61,450 bases of DNA from assembly GCA_001791645.1 (NCBI GenBank), contig MGFA01000021.1, positions 1 through 61,450 of the forward strand, read 5' to 3'. Origin of the DNA: Candidatus Uhrbacteria bacterium RIFOXYB12_FULL_58_10. GTDB lineage: Bacteria > Patescibacteriota > Patescibacteriia > UBA9934 > GWF2-40-263. The translations under genes were made by a program, and so were the position numbers. The notes under the pieces are model-generated. The model did not search any database. It saw only the letters and a list, made by a program, of their open reading frames with translations, and had not been told where the DNA came from. This document shows positions 31,034 through 46,613 of this stretch, one piece after another (positions within the stretch are counted from its first letter, which is position 1; each line of letters opens with the position of its first letter).

Positions 31034-31669
31034 ATGGATAATGAGGAGGTGACGCTCATAGAACAATCCAAAACAAAACCCGATGCGTTCGGGCGGTTGT
31101 ACGATCGCTACTACCGACCCGTCTTCGGGTTTTTACTCTCGCGAACGCACAACGTTGAGGTCGCAAAGGATCTATGCAGCGAAACGTTCTTTCAGGCGCT
31201 GAAGAACATTCGCCGGTATGAGCCGCGCGGCAAGCCGTTCAAAAGTTGGTTGTTCGCCATTGCGGTCGCGCAACTTGGCACATATTTTAGAAGTCGAAAA
31301 CGCTATCTTCCTGTGGCCATCGATGAAGCGCCAGAGCTGGTGGCAAACGAAGATTATCGCCCTGACGTTGTCATGCTTGCGAGTGAGGATGACGCAGACA
31401 TGCGTCAACAAACGTATCGACTGCGAAAATATCTCAGGAAATTAAACCAAAAGCAACAGAATATCATCAGCATGCGGTTTTTCTCCAAGATGACCGTGCC
31501 TGAAATAGCTGCCACCGTAAAAATGAAGGAAGGGACGGTTAAGTCTCACATTCATCGGTCTCTTAAAAAACTACGGGTCCTAATGACCGAATCGACGGCC
31601 AACGACAGGTATGAACGAACTGACGCTCTCACAACTCGAACAGCTTTTGGAACGGATGGAGCCCGCTGA
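31034..31669 (+). CDS. ECF-like RNA polymerase sigma factor
   Basis: The 211-residue protein has sigma region 2 (FGRLYDRYYRPVFGFLLSR and AKDLCSETFFQALKNI, about 20-60) and region 4 (VPEIAATVKMKEGTVKSHIHRSLKKLR, about 155-182), with no region 3. This is the two-domain layout of extracytoplasmic-function sigma factors. A C-terminal tail past region 4 overlaps the next gene. Two possible -10 boxes lie upstream: TATACT near 30984 and TATAAA just before the start. The next gene is a likely membrane anti-sigma factor, so the pair should respond to an envelope signal. Confidence 0.88.
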   Translation: MDNEEVTLIEQSKTKPDAFGRLYDRYYRPVFGFLLSRTHNVEVAKDLCSETFFQALKNIRRYEPRGKPFKSWLFAIAVAQLGTYFRSRKRYLPVAIDEAPELVANEDYRPDVVMLASEDDADMRQQTYRLRKYLRKLNQKQQNIISMRFFSKMTVPEIAATVKMKEGTVKSHIHRSLKKLRVLMTESTANDRYERTDALTTRTAFGTDGAR

Positions 31670-31985
31670 GACGCCAGACGTTCCAGAACACCGATATGCG
31701 CTACGTCGAGCGCTGTTAAACTCGACATTATTTGAGCGTAATCGATTTTATGTTGTTTGGACGCGGTTTTTTCTTCAGACAACCTCCATCGTGGCCGGCG
31801 GGGCGGTTATCGCGGTTCTCGTGGTGAACGTGCTCACCGTGGAAATCGACCAGCAGACCCGTCGATCATCAGTGGCGGGTCGTGCGCCGGTGCCCATTGA
31901 GATCGTGTCATTTACGGAGAAACCGGAGGTGCGCCACGTGCTTGAATTCGCAAGTCCATCCATTCAGTTCGCAACAAGCCGTTAA
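31611..31985 (+). CDS. Probable membrane anti-sigma factor
   Basis: The 124-residue protein has a cytoplasmic helical N-terminus of about 55 residues, one membrane helix (about 60-77, TTSIVAGGAVIAVLVVNVL) and a short outer segment of about 45 residues. This is the usual shape of an anti-sigma factor, although no zinc motif is present. It overlaps the sigma gene by 59 nt in another frame, which implies coupled translation. The assignment rests on context and topology, not on sequence family. Confidence 0.6.
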   Translation: MNELTLSQLEQLLERMEPAETPDVPEHRYALRRALLNSTLFERNRFYVVWTRFFLQTTSIVAGGAVIAVLVVNVLTVEIDQQTRRSSVAGRAPVPIEIVSFTEKPEVRHVLEFASPSIQFATSR

Positions 31986-32031: not shown

Positions 32032-32055
32032 CAAACGGTATGTTATGATAGATGT

Positions 32056-32266
32056 GCTCCACGAACGAACTGATTTGGGCTAAATTTGGTACTTGGGCTT
32101 GGTAATGTTCCTCTTCCCAGGAAGAGAACTGAGAGCCACGCGGTTAAGCCGATTCTGACTCGGGTTCCCGGTGAAAACTGGCAGCACGAACAGGAAACGC
32201 GTCCCGATAAGGGAATACCCGACTGCAAGAGGACCAAATCCAGTGCGTACGTGGAGTTTTCGTTTT
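32056..32266 (+). ncRNA. Structured RNA of unidentified family (6S-like shape)
   Basis: The two ends form a long closing helix. CTCCACG (32057-32063) pairs with CGTGGAG (32250-32256), ACG pairs with CGT, and ACTGATTTGG pairs with CCAAATCCAGT with one bulge. TTTTCGTTTT follows the helix, as in an intrinsic terminator. Inside are a perfect CTCTTCC-CA-GGAAGAG hairpin and a helix of TCGGGTTCCC with GGGAATACCCGA. TATGAT lies just upstream (32044-32049) as a -10 box. The rod-like 200-nt shape recalls 6S RNA, but I cannot match the conserved parts of 6S, SRP, RNase P or tmRNA. It could also be the leader of the SanA-like gene that starts 9 nt later. Confidence 0.6.
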
Positions 32267-32274
32267 ATGTTCGT

Positions 32275-32949
32275 ATGATTCGACGTCTCATCCAAATTGC
32301 AGCCTGTTCTATCGTCGTGCCTGCCTTTTTTTGGGGCGGATGCCAATGGATCGTGCTTTCGATGGCAACGGGCGTTGTCGCGTATCCATCAGACAACATT
32401 GCGCACGCGCCAGTCGTAATTGTATTAGGCGCCAGCGTTTTGGCGAATGGACAGCCATCGGACATTCTTGCCGATCGTCTCACCGTTGCGGCAAACTTGT
32501 ATACGGCCGGTCTTGCGGATAAGGTTCTCGTATCCGGCGATAACGGACAGGACGGATACGACGAGGTAAACGCCATGCGCCGATATCTGCTCGCGGCTGG
32601 CGTTGCCGCGGAGGACCTATTTTTAGATCACGCGGGATTTGACACGTATGATTCGATGTATCGTGCCCGACACGTGTTCGGGGTTACGGACGCGATCGTC
32701 GTCACGCAGCAATATCATCTTTCCAGGGCGCTGTATCTGGCTGATGCGGTGGGCATGCATGCGCAGGGCGTTTCTTCCGATCTACAGCCATACGCAAAGC
32801 AGGCCTGGTTTTCCGCCCGGGAGTCATTGGCCCGGGTAAAGGCCGTTGTAAACGTATTATTCGGCGCGGAACCGACATATTTTGGCGAGCCAATCGATTT
32901 GGCAGGAGATGGCAGGACTACGTGGGACGAAGGTATTTCTTCCCCTTAA
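32275..32949 (+). CDS. SanA/YdcF-like envelope protein (DUF218)
   Basis: The 224-residue protein starts with a membrane helix (LIQIAACSIVVPAFFWGG) and carries the full DUF218 pattern. These elements are VVIVLGASVLANGQPSDILADRL, VLVSGDNG, DEVNAMRRYLLAAGV, LDHAGFDTYDSMYRAR and IVVTQQYHLSRALYLAD. E. coli SanA is linked to envelope barrier function and cell-wall stress; the biochemical role is unsettled. The track start at 32086 runs through the structured RNA; the ATG at 32275 is the reasonable start. The 3' end overlaps the convergent rarA gene by 32 nt. Confidence 0.85.
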   Translation: MIRRLIQIAACSIVVPAFFWGGCQWIVLSMATGVVAYPSDNIAHAPVVIVLGASVLANGQPSDILADRLTVAANLYTAGLADKVLVSGDNGQDGYDEVNAMRRYLLAAGVAAEDLFLDHAGFDTYDSMYRARHVFGVTDAIVVTQQYHLSRALYLADAVGMHAQGVSSDLQPYAKQAWFSARESLARVKAVVNVLFGAEPTYFGEPIDLAGDGRTTWDEGISSP

Positions 32950-46110: not shown

Positions 46111-46578
46111 GGCACGCGTTTGTCGACTTTATTGAAAAATATGGCCGACAAGCGAACCTACGCCCAACGTGCAGAAACGATAAAGCGCGCAGTCAGTAAG
46201 CGTCGGAAGAACGTTCGGACGCCGGCCATCGAGTATCTTGGTGGCAGGGGTCAGAATTGCATACTGATTTGCGCGAATTGTCATCGCGAAGCGCACGCGG
46301 GCATTACGCAGCTTCCGGCGGAGACGTCGGAATGAAACAGGGTGAATTGTCCCGCGTAAAAAGTGGGATCCCGCAACAGGCGGTGACTGGAAGCCGTCGT
46401 CGGTAACGACACGGTAATCAGCAGCCAAGCTCGATCATCGGGTCGAGAAGGTTCAGAGACTATCCTTTCGAGGAGTACCTCTCCGGCAAACGCTGGGGCG
46501 GGAAGCGCCCTGCATCCATGCTCGTTTGAGAAGGATGAAGATATAGTCCACGCTTTCGGGAAACCGAGAGACCACGTG
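46111..46578 (+). ncRNA. Group I self-splicing intron (468 nt)
   Basis: The conserved core is plain. A Q-like segment ATCAGCAGCCAAG lies near 46418, the R element GTTCAGAGACTA near 46451-46462, and the S element AAGATATAGTCC at 46538-46549. R and S pair to form P7. The intron follows a U and ends in G (46578). An internal ORF encodes a shortened HNH homing endonuclease. I did not work out P1 and the guide sequence in full. Confidence 0.93.
46141..46335 (+). pseudogene. Internally deleted HNH homing endonuclease in the intron
   Basis: The frame encodes 64 residues. The start ADKRTYAQRAETIKRAVSKR and the end NCILICANCHREAHAG match small HNH homing enzymes of bacterial introns. Those enzymes have about 35-40 more residues in the middle, with the first CxxC zinc pair and the His-His catalytic segment. 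Here EYLGGRG is joined straight to QNCILIC, so an in-frame deletion has removed them. The protein should be inactive, leaving an intron that can splice but not home. The track start at 46102 lies in the tRNA exon. Confidence 0.75.
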
Positions 46579-46613
46579 TAATCCATTGGTCATGGGTTCG
46601 AATCCCATCCCCG

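Follow-up and report, generated by a model that had tools for sequence, protein, structure and literature searches.

A conserved stand-alone RNA of Patescibacteria with a candidate register-switching neck

The window analysed here, a stretch of 61,450 nucleotides from Candidatus Uhrbacteria bacterium RIFOXYB12_FULL_58_10 (contig MGFA01000021.1), carries, between an ECF sigma operon and a sanA (DUF218) gene, an RNA gene at 32056-32261 on the forward strand, its limits being set by matches to three covariance models (R1, R2 and R3) from the first model position to the last; the transcript probably ends a few bases further 3', within a U-run (Table 1). The original prediction placed a structured RNA at 32056-32266, and these coordinates hold: the segment folds with a minimum free energy of -75.0 kcal/mol (z -2.94), which 1 of 200 dinucleotide shuffles equalled, and covariation among its homologues goes far beyond that of shuffled and slid controls. 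The opposite strand of this segment folds as well (z -2.0), and despite this antisense fold the forward strand is identified as the RNA strand by the conserved promoter, the terminators and the wobble pairs.

Table 1. Elements of the RNA gene and its expression signals, with positions in the window
Feature	Position	Strand	Pairing or basis
Extended -10 promoter element TGTTATGAT	32041-32049	+	6 nt 5' of the RNA
P1 (closing helix), 5' strand	32056-32063	+	pairs with 32250-32257
Outer CUG (P1b) and repeat 1 AUUUGG, 5' strand of neck P2, state A	32070-32078	+	partners 32234-32239 and 32241-32243
Repeat 2 AUUUGGU, able to replace repeat 1 as partner of the neck 3' strand, state B	32084-32090	+	
P3 hairpin: base P3a GGGCUU/GAGAGCC, conserved internal loop, variable distal stem P3b	32095-32138	+	
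P4, 5' strand CGcGGU, closes the inner domain	32139-32144	+	pairs with 32217-32221
P6 hairpin with GAAA tetraloop tip and conserved G.U pair	32153-32195	+	fold and covariation
P7 hairpin	32203-32213	+	double changes in 4/4 pairs
P4, 3' strand ACCCG	32217-32221	+	pairs with the P4 5' strand
Neck 3' strand ACCAAAU-C-CAG, common to both alternative helices	32233-32243	+	
P1, 3' strand	32250-32257	+	partner of 32056-32063
U-run after P1, weak intrinsic terminator in the source genome	32257-32266	+	sequence

The full-length RNA, predicted at 190-240 nt, has its own extended -10 promoter and ends at an intrinsic terminator. The -10 box noted beforehand is such an element in the window, and a TGnTAnnnT-like sequence is kept 6-7 nt 5' of the RNA in most loci of the order. 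The predicted T-rich end is also real, but it is weaker in the source genome than the separate terminator hairpins that lie 3' of the RNA in relatives; an intrinsic terminator was found after the RNA at 28 of 41 loci, where random windows would lead one to expect 5.6. A protein-coding gene was rejected, as none of the reading frames is conserved (of 246 frames, six for each of 41 homologues, only 25 are stop-free throughout), indels do not come in threes and changes are compensatory; the conserved coding frame that had been raised as the finding to set against a structured RNA was thus absent. The locus almost certainly encodes a real, conserved, stand-alone structured non-coding RNA.

A DNA search of 60 related genomes recovered the element from each of the four congeners and from one other genus. 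With counts that are lower bounds for every search of more than 40 genomes, these having used stricter filters, the covariance model R1 (six sequences) found the RNA in 32 of the 43 genomes of the window's family, R2 (27 sequences, hand-structured) in 38 of 73 genomes of the order and R3 (41 sequences) in 49 of 380 genomes of the class. The R2 matches fall in the window's family f1 (33/43), f2 (2/2) and f3 (3/5), with none in f4 (0/23) and weak matches beyond the order in two other families of the class; R3 added many matches in f25, several in f43 and one in f36, and in a 380-genome sample of the phylum no genome outside the class was positive. Most genera of the window's family and five further families of the class carry the RNA, in one copy in nearly every positive genome; genome G024 holds two (contigs C14 and C30, 201 and 103 bits). 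A pattern scan of named genomes had a single true match, locus L091 of a Candidatus Uhrbacteria bacterium, which is identical with the locus of family member L042; its other matches were due to chance. Four near-complete genomes of the window's family (G009, G016, G015 and G029) and all of f4 lack a match, so the RNA is not indispensable everywhere.

The fold consists of the closing helix P1, a neck formed by P1b and P2, a three-way junction, the P3 hairpin and P4, which encloses P5, P6 and P7. The long closing helix of the original prediction corresponds to P1 (CUCCACG/CGUGGAG) followed by CUG-AUUUGG/CCAAAU-C-CAG. Among 41 homologues, 94% of P1 cells are paired and double changes occur in 6 of 7 pairs, and the outer P1b pairs covary most strongly in the whole alignment. 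P3a is paired in 98% of cells, with double changes in 6 of 6 pairs (9 of 9 in P3b), and its conserved internal loop reads CUUAGAACC...GUGAGAG. P4 has compensatory AU/UA changes in several homologues, and P6b and P6c have double changes in 14 of 14 pairs, the P6 tip being formed by stable tetraloops across homologues.

Covariation in homologues, one of the checks proposed for this RNA, was found. When 41 homologues were aligned to the model, double-sided compensatory change occurred in 57 of 61 pairs, with 524 double-change cells against 162 for shuffled sequences and 106-160 for slid structures, and with 88% of cells paired against 35-44% when the structure was slid, figures to be read with the R2 and R3 alignments partly fitted to the structure. 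The set of 27 sequences, aligned with MAFFT and given a structure set by hand, had double-sided change in 41 of 61 pairs (230 cells against 87.5 shuffled and 66-98 slid). The proposed pairs also came out on top of a model-free ranking of covarying columns, which is not fully independent since the alignment was fitted to the structure. No pseudoknot stood out among the top 70 column pairs of this ranking, in which the alignment of the inner domain is imperfect. Minimal variants of 131-145 nt (L062, L065 and L074) have retained P1 to P3 and the neck but little of the inner domain, which suggests that the functional core lies in the neck and P3. At locus L072 (genome G062) the RNA is about 338 nt long and has a large extra hairpin inside P5.

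The Rfam covariance searches that had likewise been proposed returned no match: cmscan against Rfam 15 (4227 families) gave nothing credible at the window locus even at E<=10, and 26 homologous loci searched against all families at E<=1, the raiA motif included, had no match. RNase P RNA and tmRNA, already doubted in the original prediction, were rejected, their models matching elsewhere in the genome (RF00010 at C14:27234-27696, 134 bits; RF00023 at C5:585-983, 133 bits). The same earlier judgement holds for SRP RNA, a role that came into question because the SRP RNA models detect nothing in these genomes: the bacterial form resembles the present RNA in being stand-alone and structured with a tetraloop hairpin, but the homologues have no conserved helix 8 motif, RF00169 and RF01854 miss them, and in 7 and 9 genomes these two models gave nothing beyond chance. 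Measured against Rfam models and literature coverage, the RNA very probably represents a new family.

The raiA motif RNA is the nearest known RNA in kind, with a similar size, a three-way junction reached through P1, a P3 and size variants of a multi-hairpin arm. It is described as a stand-alone RNA of about 200 nt with a P3 hairpin and a second multi-hairpin arm, with no expression platform and with a biochemical function that is unknown (PMC11751092). For its 7-bp core pseudoknot between the P3 loop and the inner junction, the top 70 column pairs held no counterpart under the imperfect inner-domain alignment, and a repeated neck strand is not among the raiA features described in the part of the source drawn on here (PMC11751092). 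OLE, ROOL and GOLLD are likewise stand-alone bacterial RNAs of ornate structure that comparative genomics brought to light, but the present RNA is much shorter, matches no Rfam family and belongs to another lineage.

The neighbourhood of the RNA changes between families. In the window's family the neighbours are an ECF sigma gene with a putative anti-sigma gene, mutY or rpoD, in both orientations, and in most genera no more than about 1 kb separates the RNA from the ECF sigma operon. Other genes adjoin it in f2 and f3, including rpoD in one f3 locus, and in f25, f36 and f43 a tRNA-Pro(GGG) or tRNA-Phe(GAA) gene lies within about 1.5 kb in most loci (L075-L080 and L095-L105); in the window's family, 32 loci had no tRNA nearby, and no neighbour is conserved beyond single families. 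Since neighbours vary and the RNA and the sigma orthologue occur apart, the RNA most likely acts in trans and the synteny reflects lineage history. The small protein encoded after the ECF sigma gene of the window (31611-31985) has no Pfam match, one apparent membrane-spanning stretch and counterparts conserved across the family, and is possibly a new anti-sigma family. At the other side of the RNA, 32259-32279 overlaps the likely sanA start and matches exactly, over 21 bases, a sequence beside LexA-type boxes (GTTCG/CGAAC repeats) that in relatives lie 5' of a conserved gene, probably lexA; this may indicate SOS control of sanA or be due to chance. Family-wide BLAST matches to the final 20 query bases resemble such boxes and were rejected as homologues of the RNA.

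The roles suggested by this setting and by the shape of the RNA fare poorly across homologues. A cis-regulatory leader of the downstream gene, which had been put forward for sanA, is conceivable in the window itself, where the RNA is followed after 14 nt by the likely sanA start codon (32275) and a long TTG-started frame passes through it. Among homologues, however, downstream genes and orientation vary, with many neighbours convergent, the terminators counted above separate the RNA from the next gene, and the RNA has no fixed place 5' of one gene or function that a leader or riboswitch would occupy. With its own promoter and terminator, and with neighbours that differ between families, it is therefore a stand-alone gene, and a leader is exceedingly improbable. 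Scarcely more probable is a functional part in the neighbouring ECF sigma/anti-sigma system: the operon is close by in most genera of the family, but co-occurrence largely contradicts the link, as the RNA is present without a close sigma orthologue in G010, G011, G017, G028, G037 and family f2, the orthologue is present without a detected RNA in G009 and G029, the two lie on different contigs in G006, and both orientations occur. The rod shape had also suggested 6S RNA, which is a rod with a large central bubble mimicking an open promoter and which binds RNA polymerase and templates pRNA. A divergent 6S RNA, binding RNA polymerase and serving as template for a product RNA, would match in size (about 200 nt), long closing helix, single copy and own promoter, would fit the frequent position near sigma genes within the window's family, and could have escaped RF00013, which passed its cut-off in 0 of 7 genomes (8 of 14 control genomes match). 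The conserved fold is nonetheless branched, with P3, P4 and P6 hairpins around a three-way junction and long conserved loop sequences in place of a rod and bubble; no 6S model, RF00013 included, matches at the locus at E<=10, and outside the window's family the RNA is not beside sigma genes except at the f3 locus with rpoD. A 6S RNA is thus very unlikely.

The neck of the RNA can be closed in two ways. Its 3' strand, of the type AGCCAAAU, has two complementary partners, repeat 1 (AUUUGG) and, about 10 bases further 3', repeat 2; the two helices are mutually exclusive and are therefore read as two neck states, A and B. In 37 of 42 homologues the pairing between repeat 2 and the 3' strand forms runs of 6 or more; the mean is 7.6, against 5.1 for shuffled repeat 2. 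In swap tests, in which shared ancestry is not fully removed and part of the repeat 2 signal sits in the core common to repeat 1, repeat 2 paired better with its own 3' strand than with swapped partners in 20,000 of 20,000 comparisons over all sequences (z 8.2), and within the family, with one sequence per genus, 0 of 20,000 swaps reached the observed value (z 4.36). The extension of repeat 2 that is not shared with repeat 1 gave, by itself, a weak signal within the family (z 1.1) and a significant one over all sequences (z 3.45); repeat 1, which is nearly invariant, had a within-family z of 1.74.

Individual lineages illustrate this co-change. In f25, UUUGG has become UUCGG in both repeats and the 3' strand has changed along with them; the repeat 2 pairing is AAUUCGGUUC/GAACCGAAUU at L076 and UUGACGA/UCGUCAA at L071, and it is absent at L080. 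In the related pair L065 (GAAUUGGCU/AGCCAAUUC) and L074 (GAAUUGGCG/CGCCAAUUC), U-A and G-C replace each other, and this exchange is confined to the repeat 2 helix. Modelled by folding 42 homologues with one or the other pairing penalised, state A is the lower in energy by a median of 1.9 kcal/mol, and in 25 of the 42 the states are within 3 kcal/mol. From this sequence evidence both necks are, on balance, probably used, and the two states may interconvert in the cell.

The reading favoured here, with moderate confidence and from comparative sequence data, is a new family of stand-alone, trans-acting non-coding RNAs with a register-switching neck. Transcription would start at the extended -10 element and end at the intrinsic terminator, and the closing neck of P1 and P2 would lead through the three-way junction to P3 and to an inner domain closed by P4 and bearing P5 to P7. 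The 3' strand of the neck would form state A with repeat 1 or state B with repeat 2, never both, such that a shift of register would leave only one of the repeats exposed. The neck state could be set by a bound partner, most likely a protein that sits on the conserved core of P3 and junction, and could in turn control the activity of the RNA in trans. A rather unlikely, though substantial, alternative is a stand-alone RNA that forms one neck only in the cell, repeat 2 being no switch and instead shaping the junction or pairing only during transcription or in a dimer. This would agree with the lower modelled energy of state A (a median difference of about 2 kcal/mol), with the near-invariance of repeat 1 and the strongest covariation in the adjoining P1b pairs, and, as to the dimer, with GOLLD, ROOL and OLE, large bacterial non-coding RNAs described as forming homo-oligomers (PMC12286853). 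The co-change of repeat 2 and the 3' strand, across families and among close relatives, is however hard to explain if their helix never forms.

With its covarying alternative neck the RNA presents a mechanism that is sharply defined and testable, and the presence of a single-copy, deeply conserved and strongly covarying RNA in genomes reduced to some 1 Mb points to an important function. The Candidate Phyla Radiation makes up a large share of bacterial diversity, and to our knowledge its non-coding RNAs have been little studied; a literature search found no paper naming both Candidate Phyla Radiation and 6S RNA. It is tentatively proposed that the RNA could be a near-housekeeping non-coding RNA of several Patescibacteria families, its neck acting as a strand-exchange switch with two states that a bound partner selects, with a global regulatory or ribonucleoprotein role in a lineage without detectable 6S RNA, the source genome also being without detectable SRP RNA and Ffh/FtsY.

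In the source genome neither RF00169 nor RF01854 detected an SRP RNA (1,122,946 of 1,123,060 bases searched), and phmmer at E<=0.01 found no Ffh/FtsY-type GTPase with an approximate E. coli Ffh query; the RecA control in the same search reached 2.6e-130. The genome is rated 100% complete and SRP RNA was undetected in the searched relatives too, so that loss of the SRP pathway is possible. Elsewhere in the window, 46334-46608 holds a group I intron (RF00028, 59 bits) with the T-arm and acceptor end of a tRNA after it (46591-46608), and ARAGORN reported no intact tRNA there; this is probably a tRNA gene interrupted by the intron.
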